A DNA stretch of 50,124 nt, from assembly GCA_009838845.1 (NCBI GenBank), contig VXRD01000033.1, positions 1 to 50,124 on the forward strand. Reading direction: 5' to 3'. The position numbers and the translations under genes were made by a program. This DNA is from Gemmatimonadota bacterium. Its GTDB lineage: Bacteria > Latescibacterota > UBA2968. The notes below the pieces were generated by a model, which saw only the letters and a program-made list of their open reading frames with translations, had not been told where the DNA came from and did not search any database. Each line of letters begins with the position of its first letter. Position 1 is the first letter of the stretch. This document shows positions 35,926 through 44,581 of this stretch, piece by piece.

Positions 35926-36984
35926 ATGGCAGCAGAGCTGGGTTTTGGCGTTGTTGGACTGGGTATGGGCACGAATCACTGTCGGTCTGTCACACGGGCC
36001 GAAGGTGCGAAGTTGGTGGCCGTATGCGATTTAGATGAGGAGCGTTTGGGACCGACGGCTGAGGAATACGGGTGCAAAGCTTATACGAGTTATGAAGAGA
36101 TGCTTCAGGATGATGAGGTCCAGGTCGTCAATATTTGCGTTGAGTCTGGAAAGCACGCCGAGTTGGGTATTCAGGCTGCAGATGCGGGTAAGCACATGAT
36201 CGTTGAGAAGCCCGCAGATATTACGCCTGAGCGCGTTGACCAATTAATTGGTGCGGTGAAGGATGCCGGGGTAAAGGTCGGATGTATTTTTCAAGCGCGT
36301 TTGGAACCTCTAAACAGGCGGATTAAAGATGCGGTTGATAGCGGCAAGCTGGGTAAGTTGATCGGCGTTCACGGCCATTTGCCCTGGTATCGCGCGGATA
36401 GCTATTATCAGGGCGCACATGGATCGTGGAAGGGAACGTGGGATCTCGATGGGGGAGGCTCGCTGATGAATCAGGGCGTTCACACTGTCGATTTGATTCA
36501 GTGGCTTGCAGGCGGCGTCGAGTCTGTGATGGGTATGTTTGGCGTTTTTGGGCACGATATCGAAGCAGAAGATCAGACTGTGGCGTTGTTCAAGTTTAAG
36601 AATGGCGCGATTGGCACGGTTTATACAACGACCTGCTGCTATCCAGGGCTTCCGCAACTGGTGACTATTTACGGCGAGAATGGGTCGATTATGAAAGATG
36701 CTTCGAAGCTGATTTCCTGGAAAATTCAGGGTGAGAACGAGGCAGCAGAAGAAGCGGAGATGCTGGGTTTTTACGGCGACCAGGAAGACAAACAGAAGAA
36801 TATTTCAGCAGATCCGCTGGCTGTCAGTTCCGATGGGCACACGTTGATCATCGAAGACCTCGTCGGGGCGATCAATGAAGACCGCGAGCCTATGATTGGT
36901 CTTGAAAGTGCGCGCCATGCTGTGGAAATTATCACTGCGGTGTTTGAATCTGGACGCACGGGGCGGGAAGTTAAGGTGGGGTAG
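35926..36984 (+). CDS. Gfo/Idh/MocA family oxidoreductase
   Basis: 352 aa. GVVGLGMGTNHC (Rossmann), AVCDLDEERLG, HMIVEKPADIT and a substrate domain with GGSLMNQGVHTVDLIQWLAGG carrying the likely catalytic His. Most like the Gfo/Idh at 12170 in this window (shared GxLMNQ-xH-xDLxQW and FGVFGHDIEAED-type strand). NAD(P)-dependent oxidoreductase of unknown sugar. GGAGGG precedes the ATG. Not near the sulfatases; a bidirectional terminator follows. Confidence 0.93.
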   Translation: MAAELGFGVVGLGMGTNHCRSVTRAEGAKLVAVCDLDEERLGPTAEEYGCKAYTSYEEMLQDDEVQVVNICVESGKHAELGIQAADAGKHMIVEKPADITPERVDQLIGAVKDAGVKVGCIFQARLEPLNRRIKDAVDSGKLGKLIGVHGHLPWYRADSYYQGAHGSWKGTWDLDGGGSLMNQGVHTVDLIQWLAGGVESVMGMFGVFGHDIEAEDQTVALFKFKNGAIGTVYTTTCCYPGLPQLVTIYGENGSIMKDASKLISWKIQGENEAAEEAEMLGFYGDQEDKQKNISADPLAVSSDGHTLIIEDLVGAINEDREPMIGLESARHAVEIITAVFESGRTGREVKVG

Positions 36985-37005
36985 GGGAAGTGTGAAGTGT
37001 GAAAG

Positions 37006-37037
37006 AAAAAAAGCCAGATATTTTGTCTGGCTTTTTT
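37006..37037. terminator. Bidirectional terminator
   Basis: Stem AAGCCAGA (37011-37018) with TCTGGCTT (37026-37033), 7-nt loop; A run left, T run right. Ends the Gfo/Idh gene (+) and the uxaA-selenoprotein transcript (-). Confidence 0.85.
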
Positions 37038-37040
37038 ATT

Positions 37041-37400
37041 TCACAGATTGTAGCCGGGAAATATCTCGCCCATCGCCGCTTTGTCCGTGCCCACGAATAG
37101 CCGATCTCCAGTGTGTATTAGTGGACGACGTATCAACCGGGGCTGTTCAGCCATGAGGCGAATCAGTTCGTCCGCTGACACTTCTTCCCGGTCGAGTTTC
37201 AATGTTCGCGCCGAAGGACTCCGCCACGAGAATATGTCGGTTGGCGGAGTGTCGCCGAGCAATTCTCGAAGCTCTTTCTCAGAGAACTCATCTTTGAAGA
37301 AATCCCTTTCCTCAAAATTCACGTCTTCCCGTGAAAGCCACGCTTTCACCTTGCGGCAGGTGCTTCATCTGTTCCAGGTGTAAAAGCTGATTTTAGACAT
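37041..37400 (-). CDS. ArsC/Spx-like reductase, predicted selenoprotein (TGA at 37365-37367 read as Sec)
   Basis: Read from the ATG at 37400, which has GGAG 6 nt upstream, the product is 119 aa, the family's normal length. Codon 12 is TGA. It falls where family members have the first Cys of CSTCRK, giving WNRUSTCRK. Reading as a plain ORF instead would start at the GTG at 37349 and lose the N-terminal strand and the whole CxxC site. The rest fits ArsC/Spx: KAWLSREDVNFEERDFF, FSWRSPSARTL, RLIRRPLI. Directly after the TGA is a SECIS-like hairpin (37331-37349). Sec in place of Cys is known in several thiol-redox families. Follows uxaA by 25 nt. Function could be arsenate or other disulfide reduction. 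Confidence 0.8.
37331..37349 (-). promoter_or_regulatory. Bacterial SECIS-like stem-loop
   Basis: In the mRNA, GUGAAAGC pairs with GCUUUCAC in a perfect 8-bp stem with a GUG loop. The stem starts 16 nt after the UGA and the loop is nt 24-26 after it, inside the window expected for bacterial SECIS elements, with G as first loop base. A weaker 5-bp stem (CACCU/AGGUG) sits between. Confidence 0.7.
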
Positions 37401-37425
37401 TGATATCTCCTGTATGTTCCATTAT

Positions 37426-40119
37426 TTACATCGAGACGCCCAGAAGTCCTCGGGTGAATTGGAAGTCTGTGTTACCTGTGGGGGGCGTTTTAGGCGTGTA
37501 TTGACGAGAGGCGATGGAGATGATCTGGCGCAAGAGAGCGTCGGCGTTGTGTTTGGGTTCGGTGTAGAAGATGAGGTCAAAGTCATCGCCGTAGGAGTTA
37601 GTGACGCGCTCTTCAGCCGTTGTTTGAAGCATGGGGGTCAGGGGATGCCCCTGCAAGGGGTGATCGCCCGAGTAGGCGACGATGAGGTGGACGCCCGTGC
37701 CGCCCAATCCCGTGAGGGTTTCGACCCAGTGGTCGGTCTGGCTGTCCATGATGTGATAGCCCGGTTGGGTGGGATTTTGCCCGTGTGCAAGAGTGGATAC
37801 AGGTGGCGTGTCGCCCAGAACTTCGGATAGATATATAGGATGAGACAGAAAACTTGCATTGTCGGGTACAATGAGCGTGGCACCTGTGCCGATCAAGGAT
37901 TGGGATAGAATGGCGAGTGATTGCGCGGCTATATCGGAAATAGAACCAGAAGCGTGAAGACCGATTTGAAGTGCGGACAGGCTGGCGGGAGTGATTTTAG
38001 GGGGAGGCGTCTGCGAGAACTGGTCGAGAAAATAGGCTTCGACCTTGTCGAGAACGGCCTCGATACCGCCGTCGAGTTGTACACTTGCCCATCCAAACGC
38101 ATCGGGGCTGATTCCTCTGTCGTCCAGTGCGTGTCGAATATAGTCGTTGTGGGTCTTTTCACAGCCGTGTTCCAATAACAGGCAGGTGTGTACGAGGGGG
38201 TGAGTAAGGTAGCCGAGCATAGTGCGCGTGTAGAGGCGTTCGGTGGCTTCTCCCGATACGCCGCATCCTTCGGTGTGAGGGAGGGCGACAAAGCGCGAGA
38301 TGCCCTTATCGTGGCCCAGACCCTTTTCTGTGAGACGTTTTGCCGCCATCAGCGCAATTTGTCCAGAACACAGGCTGGTGGGTAGAATCAGGCCCAGGCG
38401 GTCGGTTGTAAATCCATCTCGGGTGCGAATGGCTTCAAAGCTGTGTTCGTCGGCGTCCAATACCTGAATAGCGAGTGGCACGCCCCGGGGTTCGGGGCGG
38501 TTCTTGAGGTCGGGCAGGTGATCTGTTGAGGTCTGTCGCCATGTGCGCCATATCGAGACTTGTGCGTGTGCGGCTTTTTCGCCTTTGCTGCGTTCTCCCG
38601 AGGCGATTTTGCAGGTCAGGTCAAACATATCGCTGCCGAGGTCGTCCATGGAGGTACCGTCCAGATATGCACCCGCGTTGACATCCATATCTTTACTGAG
38701 TAGATGATAGCGTTCGGATGTGGTGACGATCTTGATGGTGGGTACAAAGGGGAAGTTTGTGATTGAGCCATTGCCCGTGATAAAGAAGATCATGTTACAT
38801 CCGGAAGCTACTTGTCCGGCAATACTTTCGAGATCATTGCCAGGGCTGTCCATGAAATAGTACCCTGGGTCGGTCATCGGTGCCGCGTAATCAATGACAG
38901 AATCGAGACGGACATCCGGGTGACGCTTCATGGCCGCGCCAATTGATTTGAGGACGATGTTGTAGAGGCCGCGAAATTTGTTGCCACCAGAAGGGTTACC
39001 TTCTGCCGTTGTTCCGTGCCAGGCCGCGAGGGTTTTATAGGCTTCCACTTTGTCGAGAAAGCGTTGGGCGACATCGTAAGATGAGACATTTTGGAGGACA
39101 TAGGACTCTGCACCGATGAGTTCGTCGGTTTCTGCGAGGTTGGCCGAGCCGCCGTGGCGAATGATTTCTCTTGCCACCCACGAAGCTAATGGATTGCCAG
39201 AGATGCCCGAGAATGCGTCTGAGCCACCGCATTGCAGTGCGATTTTGATGTGCGATAGGGGTTCGGGTGCGCGGACCATTGTCTGGACTTGCGGCAGCCA
39301 TTTGGCAATGATGTTTTCGCCTTGTTTTAGCGCGTTTTCAAAGCTGCCTTCAAGCGTGAGAAAGTGGTGCAGGACATGGTCGATAGGATAGTTATTTTGC
39401 GCGAGAAATTCCCGTAGGTGCTGATTGGTGATGGCTTCGTGACCATAGTCGATCGCGAGTACCGCACCGACGTTTGGATGTACTGCAAATCCGGCGAGTG
39501 TACGCAATAAGAGGTCTTTGTTATTGGGGATTTCAGTGCCGCCGCCTTCGGTGTGGGCTACTGCAACAATGCCATCGATGTTGTGATAATCTCGTATGCG
39601 GTCTTGTAACCTCGCTTCGAGCTGTTTGGCATAACTCGCTGTACGAGAGGATGTTCCCAGTATAACAATATTATTTCGCGTGCCTACGCCTCGACCTCCC
39701 GGTCTTTTGTAACCCTGAAAAGTACCGCACTGATCATAGTGCTTGACTTGCTCGCCTGCCTCAAAAGTGGTGATCTGGTATGGAACAATGCGATCTTCAA
39801 AGTTGGGCATGTCTGGCAGTTCAAAGTCGAGATCGCGGAGTTTAAGGGCGCCAAGGATTTCCGGGTTGCAGGCATAATCTCCGGGATAGATATGGCGCGT
39901 TGCAATGCCAAAGGGCAAGCCCCACGAGAGGAGGGGGTCGCCGGGCGCGATGGGTTGGATGGCAAAGCGATGGCCTTCGAGGATGGTGTGCCGAAGCGCG
40001 AAGGTGCGATCTGAATGGATAATCTGCGTGCCTCCGTCCAGTTTTCGGGTTGCAATGCCGACGTTGTCTCCTGGAAGAGGGAGACGACCGATTTCAGAAA
40101 ACTTATAGAAATGCGTCAT
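37426..40119 (-). CDS. UxaA-like (altronate dehydratase family) protein with duplicated core domain
   Basis: 897 aa from the ATG at 40119 (AGGA upstream; the frame is open to 40224 but lacks a site). Ordinary UxaA is about 500 aa. Residues about 1-90: SAF domain. About 130-525: first UxaA core (GYKRPGGRGVGTRN, HTEGGG at 189, PGYYFMDSPGND). About 540-880: second, diverged core (HTEGCG at 615, HGCEKTHND, PGYHIMDSQTDH, GHPLTPMLQTTAEERV). The Cys of the GCG motif is kept only in the second core. UxaA converts D-altronate to 2-keto-3-deoxygluconate using iron; this relative may use another sugar acid. Confidence 0.85.
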   Translation of the reverse strand: MTHFYKFSEIGRLPLPGDNVGIATRKLDGGTQIIHSDRTFALRHTILEGHRFAIQPIAPGDPLLSWGLPFGIATRHIYPGDYACNPEILGALKLRDLDFELPDMPNFEDRIVPYQITTFEAGEQVKHYDQCGTFQGYKRPGGRGVGTRNNIVILGTSSRTASYAKQLEARLQDRIRDYHNIDGIVAVAHTEGGGTEIPNNKDLLLRTLAGFAVHPNVGAVLAIDYGHEAITNQHLREFLAQNNYPIDHVLHHFLTLEGSFENALKQGENIIAKWLPQVQTMVRAPEPLSHIKIALQCGGSDAFSGISGNPLASWVAREIIRHGGSANLAETDELIGAESYVLQNVSSYDVAQRFLDKVEAYKTLAAWHGTTAEGNPSGGNKFRGLYNIVLKSIGAAMKRHPDVRLDSVIDYAAPMTDPGYYFMDSPGNDLESIAGQVASGCNMIFFITGNGSITNFPFVPTIKIVTTSERYHLLSKDMDVNAGAYLDGTSMDDLGSDMFDLTCKIASGERSKGEKAAHAQVSIWRTWRQTSTDHLPDLKNRPEPRGVPLAIQVLDADEHSFEAIRTRDGFTTDRLGLILPTSLCSGQIALMAAKRLTEKGLGHDKGISRFVALPHTEGCGVSGEATERLYTRTMLGYLTHPLVHTCLLLEHGCEKTHNDYIRHALDDRGISPDAFGWASVQLDGGIEAVLDKVEAYFLDQFSQTPPPKITPASLSALQIGLHASGSISDIAAQSLAILSQSLIGTGATLIVPDNASFLSHPIYLSEVLGDTPPVSTLAHGQNPTQPGYHIMDSQTDHWVETLTGLGGTGVHLIVAYSGDHPLQGHPLTPMLQTTAEERVTNSYGDDFDLIFYTEPKHNADALLRQIISIASRQYTPKTPPTGNTDFQFTRGLLGVSM

Positions 40120-40300
40120 GTGTTGTGTCCTTTGATAAGTCGGTTTAGGGATAAGAGGTATAAGGATAAAAAAAAGAGATGTCAAGGGAGAAGGATGAAG
40201 TGTGAGGGGAGAAATGGTGGACAATTGGCCGACTCTCAGGCCAGTTCACGCGGGTGTCTTGTCTCACATCTCGCGTATTGCGTCTCACCCAAAAAATACC

Positions 40301-40330
40301 TTGACAGAGCGAGTGCGTTTGGTTTATGTT
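40301..40330 (+). promoter_or_regulatory. Putative promoter of the dtxR-feoAB operon
   Basis: TTGACA (40301-40306), an 18-nt spacer and TATGTT (40325-40330), 64 nt before the regulator start. I see nothing else clear between 40120 and 40300 beyond purine-rich, loosely repetitive sequence. Confidence 0.5.
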
Positions 40331-40346
40331 TCTATCAGTTGTTTTA

Positions 40347-40373
40347 TTAGCAAAACATTGGTTAAATGGCTAA
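40347..40373 (+). promoter_or_regulatory. Candidate metalloregulator operator
   Basis: TTAGC (40347-40351) and GCTAA (40369-40373) form an imperfect dyad just downstream of the predicted -10. DtxR-family operators begin and end with TTAG/CTAA-type arms, though the spacing here is longer than the classical 19-bp site. Suggests autoregulation. Confidence 0.35.
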
Positions 40374-40393
40374 ACGCACGAGGGGGCATTATG

Positions 40394-40915
40394 ATGGCAT
40401 CGGATGTATGGAAAGAATACGAGAGCAACGAGATTTCCCACAGTGTTGCCCATCATCTAACTGCCATTCACGAGTTGATGGGCGATCTGGGCTATGCGCG
40501 GGTTTCGGATGTGGCGCGTGCGCTGGAGATTACCCGGGGTAGTGCTTCGCTGACGCTCAAAGCCCTCAAGGCGCGCGGGCTGGTTGTGGAAGATCACAAT
40601 AAATTTTTGAAATTATCCGAAGATGGCCGCCGCATTGTCGATTCTATTTTAGCCAAACGCGCTGTTGTTCGCAAATTTCTCAATGAGGTGCTCAAGCTCG
40701 ACGAGCATCAAGCCGAAGTAGATGCGTGCAAGGTCGAGCATCTTTTAAGCGCGCAAACTGGTGGGCAATTGCTGCATTTTGTGCGCTTCTTGCTCTCCGA
40801 TGATCCCACTGCGCGACAATTTCTCTCTGAATTCTGGTCCAGGTTGGATCAGGATGAAGAGTGGCAGTGGCCCGTTCAGGATGTTGATCAATTATTCAAT
40901 TTGGAGTCTCAATAA
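40394..40915 (+). CDS. Short DtxR-family metal-dependent regulator
   Basis: 173 aa from the ATG at 40394, 7 nt after GAGGGGG; a second ATG at 40391 is also possible. Winged helix about 16-75 (YARVSDVARALEITRGSASLTLKALKARGLV) and dimerisation helices carrying the primary-site motif ACKVEH (Cys112, Glu115, His116), as in iron-responsive DtxR/IdeR. The ancillary-site H-x-x-x-E helix is altered (RAVVRKFL). The SH3/FeoA-like third domain is missing, but the next gene is a free FeoA, overlapping by 1 nt. Probably represses the feo operon with Fe(II). Confidence 0.88.
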   Translation: MASDVWKEYESNEISHSVAHHLTAIHELMGDLGYARVSDVARALEITRGSASLTLKALKARGLVVEDHNKFLKLSEDGRRIVDSILAKRAVVRKFLNEVLKLDEHQAEVDACKVEHLLSAQTGGQLLHFVRFLLSDDPTARQFLSEFWSRLDQDEEWQWPVQDVDQLFNLESQ

Positions 40916-41157
40916 TGGCTTATGCAACGGATGCTGCAACCCCACTTTCAATATGGGGCCGGGGTGATGAAGGTACTATTGAAGGCATTTCAGGAGCCAA
41001 TCAACTGGCGGCCCGACTGCGTGAGGTGGGTGCTATACCAGGTGTCCCGGTGCGCGTGTTGCGCGTTGGGCGCACTGTGGTCATTCAGGTGGGTAGCAGC
41101 AGATTTTGCTTGCGAAAAACCGATGCTGCATGCATCAAAGGAATGAAAGCGGCCTGA
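40915..41157 (+). CDS. feoA: FeoA, ferrous iron transport accessory protein
   Basis: 80 aa with the FeoA SH3-like fold pattern: LREVGAIPGVPVRVLRVG then VVIQVGSSRFCLRKTDA. It is thought to bind and modulate FeoB. The ATG overlaps the regulator stop by one base and feoB begins 6 nt after its stop. Confidence 0.93.
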   Translation: MAYATDAATPLSIWGRGDEGTIEGISGANQLAARLREVGAIPGVPVRVLRVGRTVVIQVGSSRFCLRKTDAACIKGMKAA

Positions 41158-41163
41158 TTTATT

Positions 41164-43344
41164 ATGGCAATGAATATAGCGAATCGAGAGCGACCTTATG
41201 TGGGTCGTGCCACGGTCGCTGTGGTTGGCAATCCCAATACGGGTAAGACAACGCTTTTTAATGCTCTGACGGGGCTTTCGCAGCGCGTGGGAAATTTTCC
41301 CGGCGTTACGGTTGAGCGCAAGGTCGGACAATTGACATTGCCCAACGCGGGTGCGGTTGACCTGCTGGATTTGCCCGGTACATACAGCCTTTCAGCCAAG
41401 TCTCCAGATGAGCTTATTGCTGTTGAAGCACTGATGGGGTTGTTGGAGAGCGAGAGTACCATTCAAGCTGTGCTCGTGGTTCTCGACGCCAGCAATTTGA
41501 GGCGCAGTTTATACGTCGTATCTCAACTTCTCGAAATTGATTTGCCCCTGGTTGTTGCCCTCAATATGTTAGATGTGGCCAAAGCCAGGGGCATTGTTAT
41601 TGATGCACCTGCTCTGAGCGAGCGTTTGGGCGTTCCTGTTATTCCCATACAGGCCAATAAACGCGTGGGACTTGATGAATTGAAAGAAGCCCTTTCTCGG
41701 GTTGTTGAAAAGGGCAGGGTTCCCTCGCGCAGCCCGATATCCCCGCAATCCTGGTGGGTAGAAGCCGATCAGTTGGCGCGAAAATACGAAGGTGTATCTA
41801 CGGGGCTGGCGTTGCGTGTGTTGGTTGATAATCAGAACGCCTTTACATCCCATGTCGTGGAACGCTTTGGTGATGACTTTGCCGCCGACCTTCACGCGTT
41901 GCGAGCACAGATTAATGCGGATGATGCACTGGCGAATCGAGAGATCGAATGGCGCTATAGATGGATCGACGAAGTCCTCGATGATGTGTTGCGCGATCCC
42001 GAACCACTTCGCGTGACCCGTTCTGATCAACTGGATCGGATTTTGACCCATCCGCTATGGGGTAGCCTGAGTTTTGCTGTGATTATGGCCTTTGTATTTC
42101 AATCGATTTTTTCGTGGGCCGTGCCTTTAATGGATGGTATTGACGCGTTGTTTGGGACGGTCGGAGGATGGGCTTCGGGCTATCTGCCTGAAGGAGCGCT
42201 GCAAAGTATGGTGGTGGATGGGGTGATTGCCGGAGTGGGAGGCGTGGTCATTTTTTTGCCCCAGATTTGTATTCTGTTCCTCTTTATTGCCATACTGGAA
42301 GATTGTGGATATATGGCCCGCGCGGCGCTGTTGATGGATCGCCTGTTAACGCCGTGTGGTTTGTCGGGGAAGTCTTTTATTCCCCTGTTGTCGAGTTTTG
42401 CCTGTGCGATTCCGGGTGTGATGGCTACGCGGACTATCAATGACCCCAAAGATCGCATTGCCACGATGCTGGTTGCGCCGTTGATGAGTTGCTCTGCGCG
42501 TTTGCCGGTGTACGCGATTTTTATTGGGGCTTTTATTCCCGCCCGAGATGTTTGGGGGGGGATTGGGTTGCAGGGGCTTACGCTTTTCGCGCTGTACTGC
42601 GTTGGTATTGTTGTGGCTATTCCCATTGCGTGGATTTTAAAAAAGACGCTGTTGAGAGGGCAGCCCACGCCTTTTTTGCTCGAGTTGCCGTCTTACAAAA
42701 TACCAGATGTGGGCACTGTTGGGATGCGTATTTATCAAAGTGCGAGGCATTTTCTCGAAAGAGCTGGCACATTGATTCTCGCCGCGACGATTGTGATGTG
42801 GGCACTGGCGTATTTCCCGAGGTCTGAAACAATTGCCGAACATTACGAGGCTGAGCGCGAGCGATTAGTTGGGGCATCGGAGGAGGTTTTGGATGATTTG
42901 CGCGCGAAAGAGGCCGGCGAGATGCTCCAGCAGAGTTTTCTGGGGCGGATGGGACATGCTGTTGAACCCGTCGTAGAGCCATTGGGATGGGATTGGCGGA
43001 TTGGGATGGCGGCACTGGCATCTTTCCCTGCGAGGGAAGTAATTGTCGCTGTTCTGGGGACTATTTATAGTCTGGGAGAGGTAGATGAGGAATCGGCGTC
43101 GCTTAGAGACGCGCTTCGGTCTGCGACCTGGTCTGATGGACGAAAGGTGTTTAATATCCCGGTCGCACTGTCTATTATGGTATTTTTTGCACTGTGCGCG
43201 CAGTGCGTTTCCACCCTTGCGGTTATTCAACGCGAAACGGGGGCCTGGCGGTGGCCCGTGCTGACTTTTGTTTATATGACGGTGCTCGCCTATATCGGCG
43301 CATTTGTGACTTATCGCCTCGGAATGGCGCTCGGATGGGGGTAA
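41164..43344 (+). CDS. feoB: FeoB, ferrous iron transporter
   Basis: 726 aa. N-terminal G domain: GNPNTGKTTLFNAL (G1), VGNFPGVTVERKVG (G2), DLPGTYSL (G3), NMLDVAKARG (G4). Residues about 300-720 hold the membrane part with paired Gate motifs, including PLLSSFACAIPGVMATRTI and SFPAREVIVAVLG. Imports Fe(II) across the inner membrane with GTP hydrolysis. Ribosome site weak, so expression probably relies on coupling with feoA. Followed by a small Cys-rich peptide gene. Confidence 0.97.
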   Translation: MAMNIANRERPYVGRATVAVVGNPNTGKTTLFNALTGLSQRVGNFPGVTVERKVGQLTLPNAGAVDLLDLPGTYSLSAKSPDELIAVEALMGLLESESTIQAVLVVLDASNLRRSLYVVSQLLEIDLPLVVALNMLDVAKARGIVIDAPALSERLGVPVIPIQANKRVGLDELKEALSRVVEKGRVPSRSPISPQSWWVEADQLARKYEGVSTGLALRVLVDNQNAFTSHVVERFGDDFAADLHALRAQINADDALANREIEWRYRWIDEVLDDVLRDPEPLRVTRSDQLDRILTHPLWGSLSFAVIMAFVFQSIFSWAVPLMDGIDALFGTVGGWASGYLPEGALQSMVVDGVIAGVGGVVIFLPQICILFLFIAILEDCGYMARAALLMDRLLTPCGLSGKSFIPLLSSFACAIPGVMATRTINDPKDRIATMLVAPLMSCSARLPVYAIFIGAFIPARDVWGGIGLQGLTLFALYCVGIVVAIPIAWILKKTLLRGQPTPFLLELPSYKIPDVGTVGMRIYQSARHFLERAGTLILAATIVMWALAYFPRSETIAEHYEAERERLVGASEEVLDDLRAKEAGEMLQQSFLGRMGHAVEPVVEPLGWDWRIGMAALASFPAREVIVAVLGTIYSLGEVDEESASLRDALRSATWSDGRKVFNIPVALSIMVFFALCAQCVSTLAVIQRETGAWRWPVLTFVYMTVLAYIGAFVTYRLGMALGWG

Positions 43345-43348
43345 TGGT

Positions 43349-43498
43349 ATGACCGACTGGCAAAATTGGATCGCGGTTGCAGTGGCACTCTGGTGTGCCT
43401 ATCGCGTTATTGGTGAGGTCGTAAGGCCGTTTTTGACTTCGTCTTGTTCCGGCTGTGGCGGGGAAGCAAAGCGCGAGGGTTTGATAGAGATTGAATAA
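43349..43498 (+). CDS. FeoB-associated Cys-rich membrane peptide
   Basis: 49 aa, too short for routine ORF calling. One membrane helix (about residues 7-24, NWIAVAVALWCAYRVIGEVV) then SSCSGCGGEAKR. Small proteins with one helix and a C-x-x-C-type end are regularly encoded right after feoB (FeoB-associated Cys-rich family). It follows feoB by 4 nt and is closed by a terminator. Role not established. Confidence 0.8.
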   Translation: MTDWQNWIAVAVALWCAYRVIGEVVRPFLTSSCSGCGGEAKREGLIEIE

Positions 43499-43529
43499 TT
43501 AGGGAAATACGGAAGTTTCGTTTTGTATA

Positions 43530-43564
43530 AAAAACCCTTCAATCTATGGATTGAGGGTTTTTTC
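43530..43564 (+). terminator. Rho-independent terminator of the feo operon
   Basis: AAAACCCT-T-CAATC with GATTG-AGGGTTTT, one bulged T, 4-nt loop, followed by a T run. Directly precedes the metal ABC transporter promoter. Confidence 0.8.
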
Positions 43565-43569
43565 TTTTC

Positions 43570-43598
43570 TTGACCATATCCCCTGATTTTTATATTTT
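43570..43598 (+). promoter_or_regulatory. Putative promoter of the Mn/Zn ABC transporter operon
   Basis: TTGACC (43570-43575), 17-nt spacer, TATTTT (43593-43598). Confidence 0.5.
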
Positions 43599-43612
43599 TA
43601 GCTCTGACTAAA
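43597..43612 (+). promoter_or_regulatory. Candidate DtxR/MntR-type operator
   Basis: TTTAG-CTCTGA-CTAAA, a 5-bp-arm dyad overlapping the end of the -10 box and the probable transcription start. Arms of TTAG/CTAA type are typical of DtxR-family sites. Likely target of the MntR-like regulator at the end of the same operon. Confidence 0.4.
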
Positions 43613-43666
43613 TTTTATTTTAGCAGCAATATAAGAATTGTTGTAGGCATATATAATGGAGGGTAT

Positions 43667-44581
43667 ATGTATAGATTTTTCATTATGGCTGGTGTTTTAT
43701 TGCTGTGCGCGTGTGGCGGAGGCGAAACGCCGCCGGTTGAACAGGATAAAAAGCTGGTGGTGTGTACGACCGGAATGGTCGGCGATCTGGTGCGCCATGT
43801 TGCAGGGGATCGCGCTGAGGTGATTTCCCTGATGGGGCCTGGAATTGACCCGCATTATTACAAGGCGACGCAGGGCGATTTGCAGAAACTGTCTCGAGCG
43901 GATGTGATATTTTACAATGGTCTCTTTCTGGAAGGCAAGCTGGAAGGTATTTTTGAAAAGATGGCGCGCAGCAAGACGGTGATTCCAGTATCGCGGGATA
44001 TTTCCAAAGAGAGGCTGCGGAAACCGGTTGCTGGAAAAGGGGAGCACGATCCACATATCTGGTTTGACGTCAGCATGTGGGCAGAGACCCTGTCCGTAGT
44101 TGTCCAGACGCTGAGCGGGCGTGACGCCGATGGTGCAGGTGTGTTTCGCGCCAATGCCGAGGCGTATCGCAAGCAATTGCTCGATCTCGACGCCTGGGCA
44201 AAAGCGCAGATTGGGCGCATTCCCAGCGACCAGCGCGTGTTGATTACAGCACACGACGCCTTTGGATATTTTGGTCTTGCTTACGGCATTGAAGTGCGCG
44301 GGCTTCAGGGAATTTCGACTGTGGCCGAATACGGCGTCAACGATGTGTCGCTGCTGGTAGATTTTATCGTCAAACGGCGGGTAAAAGCCATTTTTGTGGA
44401 AAGCAGTGTGCCCGAGCGTTCGATCAATGCCGTGCGCGAAGGGTGCAAGGCGCAGGGATGGAATGTTGCAATTGGTGGAACTCTGTATTCCGACGCGATG
44501 GGACCTGCGGGCAGTGGGGCCGATACGTACATCGGCATGGTAAGGTCAAATGTGAACACAATTGTCGAGGTATTAAAATAA
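43667..44581 (+). CDS. Metal ABC transporter substrate-binding lipoprotein (Mn/Zn cluster A-I type)
   Basis: 304 aa. Signal peptide with lipobox LLCAC (Cys about residue 16). Metal ligands as in TroA/MntC/PsaA: His in IDPHYY, His in DPHIWFD, Glu in FVESSVPE and Asp in LYSDAMGPAG. The Glu/Asp pair leans toward Mn(II)/Fe(II) rather than Zn-only proteins, which use a third His; no His-rich loop is present. Captures the metal outside the inner membrane and delivers it to the permeases downstream. GGAGGG precedes the ATG. Overlaps the ATPase start by 1 nt. Confidence 0.93.
   Translation: MYRFFIMAGVLLLCACGGGETPPVEQDKKLVVCTTGMVGDLVRHVAGDRAEVISLMGPGIDPHYYKATQGDLQKLSRADVIFYNGLFLEGKLEGIFEKMARSKTVIPVSRDISKERLRKPVAGKGEHDPHIWFDVSMWAETLSVVVQTLSGRDADGAGVFRANAEAYRKQLLDLDAWAKAQIGRIPSDQRVLITAHDAFGYFGLAYGIEVRGLQGISTVAEYGVNDVSLLVDFIVKRRVKAIFVESSVPERSINAVREGCKAQGWNVAIGGTLYSDAMGPAGSGADTYIGMVRSNVNTIVEVLK

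Follow-up and report, generated by a model that had tools for sequence, protein, structure and literature searches.

Known ArsC- and Spx-like selenoproteins

Selenoproteins of the ArsC family are known in two forms, UxxS and UxxC (U being selenocysteine, Sec), and a 2022 review names both (PMC9312934). Arsenate reductase selenoproteins of the UxxS form date from a 2005 report (PMC1088965), and a genome survey of 2006 includes ArsC-like selenoproteins (PMC1794560). In the Global Ocean Sampling (GOS) marine survey of 2008, 42 UxxC sequences stand under the name 'Arsenate reductase 2' and the domain cd03032 (PMC2398784), a domain called ArsC_Spx in a 2021 paper (PMC8755942). The family model NF041106, ArsC_rel_Se_1 (ArsC family (seleno)protein), is likewise given as UxxC in PMC13188914. 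As for Spx, PMC2801614 presents G52, together with Y263 of the RNA polymerase alpha-CTD, as part of the contact between the two proteins, and reports that the substitutions R60E and K62E impair activation.

Here we analyse a gene from an uncultured member of the Latescibacterota, found in a 50,124-nucleotide stretch of DNA (contig VXRD01000033.1, hereafter the window). Its product is of the UxxC Spx/ArsC-like kind, which the papers cited above show to be already known, and is a distinct member of it. ArsC_rel_Se_1 shares the ArsC family and the UxxC motif; the window protein falls outside that subfamily, scoring 35.2 bits, far below the cut-off of 85. The GOS 'Arsenate reductase 2' group shares UxxC with Sec in first place, a likeness of motif and description, and could be either this clade or a different one. 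Spx of Bacillus and its relatives has the same fold, the CxxC in the same place and about 31-34% identity, and is the nearest group in a small tree; it differs in having Cys where the window protein would have Sec, and the counterparts of its G52 and K62, as well as of Y263 in the host alpha-CTD, are missing here. The UxxS type ('Arsenate reductase 1') probably has a representative in the same genome, a gene on contig C85 with the motif U-S-K-S. Its product is an ArsC-family protein like that of the window, but the two are 29% identical, Ser replaces the resolving Cys, and the C85 protein lies closer to TIGR00014, at 85.9 bits (cut-off 106.05, so under it). Our literature searches returned no paper on the window gene among the matches listed.

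An in-frame TGA in the active site of a Spx/ArsC-family gene

The open reading frame (ORF), stop codon included, occupies 37041-37400 on the minus strand and would encode 119 residues with Sec at position 12. A preliminary description of this DNA, made from the sequence alone, had pointed to a single minus-strand TGA at the first catalytic Cys of a CSTCRK motif, with an ATG and a GGAG upstream and an intact, family-like frame downstream, and all of these are where it placed them. The TGA (37365-37367) is codon 12 and takes the place of the first Cys of the Spx/ArsC-family CxxC motif, turning it into UxxC, of which codon 15 (37356-37358) supplies the resolving Cys. The start codon is the ATG at 37398-37400; 6 nt before it lies GGAG (37407-37410), a likely ribosome-binding site that recurs at this place in five of nine orthologs. 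From codon 12 to the terminal TGA (37041-37043) the frame is uninterrupted, and the predicted product begins MSKISFYTWNR-U-STCRKVKAWL.

With C substituted for U, the protein scores 67.7 bits against Pfam ArsC (PF03960; cut-off 24) and, with C for the TGA, 79.5 bits against the NCBIfam Spx/MgsR model TIGR01617, whose curated cut-off is 75.05. Three of the nine orthologs, the window's included, were scored with the latter model: L011 reaches 76.7 bits, and L017, the most divergent ortholog, stays under the cut-off at 68.7. Against TIGR00014, arsenate reductase (glutaredoxin), the window protein scores 42.7 bits, under the cut-off of 106.05.

Downstream, between this gene and a convergent neighbour, an inverted repeat GCCAGA...TCTGGC with A and T runs (37006-37037) reads as terminator-like; such a repeat follows the gene in eight of nine orthologs and is absent in L017. 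An Rfam search of 36900-37600 gave nothing above gathering score, and its 14 weak matches all overlap the repeat.

Gene neighbourhood

The convergent neighbour is a Gfo/Idh/MocA oxidoreductase by Pfam (35926-36984, plus strand). In all eight relatives examined, the Gfo/Idh gene lies on the other strand at most 0.5 kb from the selenoprotein gene. On the upstream side stands a UxaA-type D-galactarate/altronate dehydratase (37426-40224, minus strand; Pfam PF20629, PF04295). The preliminary description had set the selenoprotein gene directly behind it; this is true of the window, where 25-30 nt separate the two genes, but a wider linkage is the weak part of that description, as the spacing varies across relatives: in three of eight the distance to the UxaA-type gene is at most 30 nt, in four it is about 350-630 nt, and in one (L074) the gene was not found upstream. 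We rejected this association as a functional clue because the spacing is not conserved, and the gene neighbours give no help with function.

Several features of this region deserve separate record. In the relatives L069, L071, L072 and L073 an additional stretch of about 350-630 nt lies between the UxaA-type gene and the selenoprotein gene, and L070 has the same 25-30 nt as the window. In L074, which diverges most among the relatives, an ORF that looks by eye like a transposase (L074:3748-4461, minus strand) sits upstream at the place that the UxaA-type gene holds in the others. Divergent from the UxaA-type gene of the window, 40202-44581 (plus strand) encodes an iron-dependent-repressor-like regulator, FeoB and a ZnuA-like zinc-binding protein.

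Orthologs carry the TGA, and distant homologs carry Cys

We searched for relatives in 60 genomes and then in 64 genomes of the phylum, the source genome included. Among the 64, the gene occurs in nine of the 11 genomes of one Candidatus Latescibacterota genus and in none of the 53 outside it, with a wide gap in score: orthologs reach at least 227.6 bits and the next matches at most 37.9. Two orthologs come from single-contig assemblies (G007, G008), and six loci can also be found among named records, whose titles are all Latescibacteria or Candidatus Latescibacterota. The gene is missing from two genus genomes; at E 1e-50, selA has no match in G005 and has one in G010.

An alignment of homologs at codon 12, which had been proposed as a check, gives TGA in nine of nine close relatives and Cys in 63 of 63 distant ones. 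The distant set comes from a scan of genome contigs with two peptide patterns, which yielded 69 loci: codon 12 is TGA in the six Latescibacteria loci, the remaining 63 have TGT or TGC, and Cys15 is kept in all 69, as it is in the nine orthologs. By title, the 63 Cys loci belong mostly to Erysipelotrichaceae and other Bacillota, and these and the Latescibacteria loci are all that this one scan gave; the 63 are an uneven sample because the patterns were biased towards this N-terminus and the motif CRKVKAW. Among viral contigs, 57 stretches fit a pattern and none coded for a relative. A TGA in another locus (L027, genome G030) was considered as a Sec codon and rejected: positioned close to where the match ends, it looks like an ordinary stop codon.

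A maximum-likelihood tree was built from 27 rows: nine Sec orthologs, ten Spx, three other CxxC proteins and five ArsC-type proteins of related genomes. In it Spx is the partner (93/91) of the Sec clade (97/96), and the other CxxC proteins and ArsC stand apart. Eight of the 63 other loci were chosen by hand as rows, and long branches prompted a warning from the program. Three CxxC homologs from related genomes (L018, L030, L033) had been candidates for Cys orthologs and were set aside, since they fall outside the group of Sec proteins and Spx in this tree.

Redox enzyme or Spx-type regulator

Judged from its sequence features, the product is probably a selenol redox enzyme and not a regulator that binds RNA polymerase. 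The alternative would be a selenol-based transcription regulator, that is, a Spx homolog with a Sec-Cys redox switch and an RNA polymerase partner. The grouping with Spx in the tree speaks for a regulator, as do the best sequence matches, which are Spx, and the TIGR01617 score of the window protein; the failure of the most divergent ortholog to reach the cut-off of that same model speaks against it. AlphaFold2, run with the nine orthologs, gave a best model with pLDDT 88 and pTM 0.77, in a set of five whose pLDDT ranges from 88 to 46. Ranked by E-value, the solved structures that match this model are Spx at ranks 1-8, followed by ArsC-like proteins and YffB, an order that favours a regulator; by TM-score, the ArsC/YffB-like structures, at up to 0.78, stand slightly above Spx at 0.66-0.76.

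Our preference rests on the contact with polymerase. Spx R60 is kept, and so are R92 and P93. Against a regulator, the place of Spx G52 is a gap in the selenoprotein alignment and K62 is Pro in nine of nine orthologs. On the polymerase side, one alpha-CTD was found in this genome; its RSANCLK corresponds to RSYNCLK of the Bacillus chains, with Ala for Y263, the Tyr two residues before C265. A contact of the Spx type, in which G52 of Spx and Y263 of the alpha-CTD take part, is not found here. Because both known sides of this contact are missing, we favour a selenol redox protein in which Sec12 would be the nucleophile and Cys15 the resolving residue. Since the clade groups with Spx and R60, R92 and P93 are kept, some room is left for a regulator, which we nevertheless consider unlikely. 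Rather improbable too is the more specific form of that idea, a Spx-family regulator that would sense oxidants through Sec by a selenenylsulfide switch and meet RNA polymerase through an interface unlike that of Bacillus Spx.

A constrained SECIS-type hairpin follows the TGA

Downstream of the active-site codons the transcript can form the hairpin GUGAAAGC-GUG-GCUUUCAC (37349-37331, minus strand; loop 37341-37339). The perfect 8-bp stem and GUG loop of the preliminary description are confirmed: the stem begins at nt 16 and the loop at nt 24 after the TGA, a spacing of 23 nt, and the folding energy is -8.6 kcal/mol. A 2026 review models the bacterial SECIS with a loop of 3-9 nt, an upper stem of 4-16 bp, a spacing of 16-37 nt, at least one G in loop positions 1-2, mostly followed by G or U, and a minimum free energy of at most -7.5 kcal/mol (PMC13188914). 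The hairpin falls within these published constraints in loop, stem, spacing and energy, as had been claimed of its geometry; the comparison of its energy with shuffled sequences is the weak point. Against dinucleotide shuffles, the hairpin region gives z of -0.27, -0.65 and -0.87 for three lengths and is no stronger than the shuffles, and folding energy by itself is weak evidence for a SECIS.

How often such a stem arises by chance depends on the pairs permitted. We counted a stem as being in SECIS position if its loop has 3-14 nt with a G among the first two. Watson-Crick stems of 8 bp or more that are so placed follow 7 of 11,094 codons in the window's 26 long ORFs; once G-U pairs are permitted, the share rises to 5.9% of codons. 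Within 41 nt of context, six of nine orthologs have the hairpin as their minimum-energy fold and three have another; in contexts of 55-62 nt its outer pairs are weak and nearly vanish. Given the chance rate with G-U pairs, the weak z values, the rival folds and the lost outer pairs, we take the stem alone as moderate to modest evidence.

Conservation across the orthologs carries more. Codons 16-23 are identical in all nine, the longest invariant run of the gene (8 codons; shuffle p=0.0005). Among amino acid-invariant codons having synonyms, five of five are unchanged in the hairpin codons 18-23 vs 17 of 63 elsewhere (p=0.0025), and seven of seven in codons 16-23 vs 15 of 61 (p=0.00018), the former range being the hairpin itself and the latter one picked after the alignment was seen. 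The shuffle and Fisher tests take codons as independent, and these p values are guides because the nine sequences are related. As the hairpin is identical in all nine orthologs, pair counting does not apply and covariation lends no evidence. On the alignment, the comparative signal, that is, TGA in nine of nine together with the invariance of codons 16-23, is stronger evidence than the hairpin fold itself.

The genome encodes the Sec machinery

The expectation that the genome should carry selA, selB, selC and selD proved correct, all four being above curated cut-offs. The best tRNA-Sec match has 70.1 bits (cut-off 47), and ARAGORN calls it SeC with anticodon TCA; the model matches 18 places in the genome, of which two more pass narrowly (48.4 and 47.3 bits) and 15 are below cut-off. 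selA (577 bits) and selB (384 bits) lie side by side on contig C95, and selD (369 bits) is on C115 beside the tRNA-Sec gene. Among the 60 genomes searched, selA was found in 46. In 14 named control genomes, weak matches turned up in all 14 for tRNA-Sec, selB and selD and in four for selA; the numbers that pass cut-offs are five for tRNA-Sec, two each for selB and selD, and one for selA. Because weak matches also arise in control genomes, we judged presence by the cut-offs.

Two other genes of this genome have an in-frame TGA. In selD (L052; G000:C115:4816-5739, minus strand, with the tRNA-Sec gene just downstream) it lies near the start and is followed by a 7-bp hairpin with the loop GGU. The ArsC-family gene on C85 mentioned above (L055:2055-2399; G000:C85:5054-5398, minus strand) has it in a UxxS motif, IYHNPN-U-SKSNGA. 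This gene is in nine of the 11 genus genomes, TGA stands at the same place in three of the 49 others searched, and its sequence makes it a likely case of the known UxxS arsenate reductase selenoprotein.

Taken with the Sec machinery, the codon-12 alignment of close and distant homologs and a hairpin within the SECIS constraints support the ArsC/Spx-like selenoprotein originally predicted, and the TGA very probably inserts Sec at the active site. That it is a true stop, with the gene a pseudogene or the working protein starting beyond it, at GTG 37349, is very unlikely. A 102-residue ORF does start at that GTG; it begins at codon 18, though, and would lose the first strand (residues 4-8) and both active-site residues. 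Codons 1-11, which would then lie outside the protein, vary mostly at synonymous or few positions, and conservation in the orthologs is protein-like on either side of the TGA. The orthologs diverge to 75% DNA identity, and the lone stop is still at one codon in nine of nine with no further internal stop. Reading of the TGA as another amino acid, through a suppressor or a changed code, is hardly credible: a tRNA scan of one 3-kb locus found nothing in its favour, TGA ends 11 of the 27 long ORFs of the window, the genome has the full Sec system, and more distant homologs have Cys at codon 12.

Proposed mechanism and implications

What can be read from or computed on the DNA is the UGA codon, how well it is conserved, the constraint on the hairpin, the presence of the Sec machinery, the protein family and the predicted fold; from these we infer Sec insertion and a redox cycle. 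SelB and Sec-tRNA would decode UGA codon 12 under the guidance of the hairpin 23 nt further on, giving a Spx/ArsC-family protein that has a thioredoxin fold and U-x-x-C as its active site. Its residue-12 selenol may then attack an oxidised substrate, be it a disulfide, another oxidised thiol or an oxyanion. Cys15 would resolve residue 12 as a selenenylsulfide, and cellular thiols or thioredoxin would recycle the protein.

With this gene an uncultured phylum gains a well-supported selenoprotein candidate. Ordinary gene calling would shorten it to at most 102 residues, without the active site. All nine orthologs found appear to use Sec, and among the 64 genomes of the phylum this version is found in one genus only. 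Its clade stands beside Spx, yet both known sides of the contact between Spx and polymerase are missing, and so the protein may serve as a test of this fold as a redox enzyme outside Bacillota.
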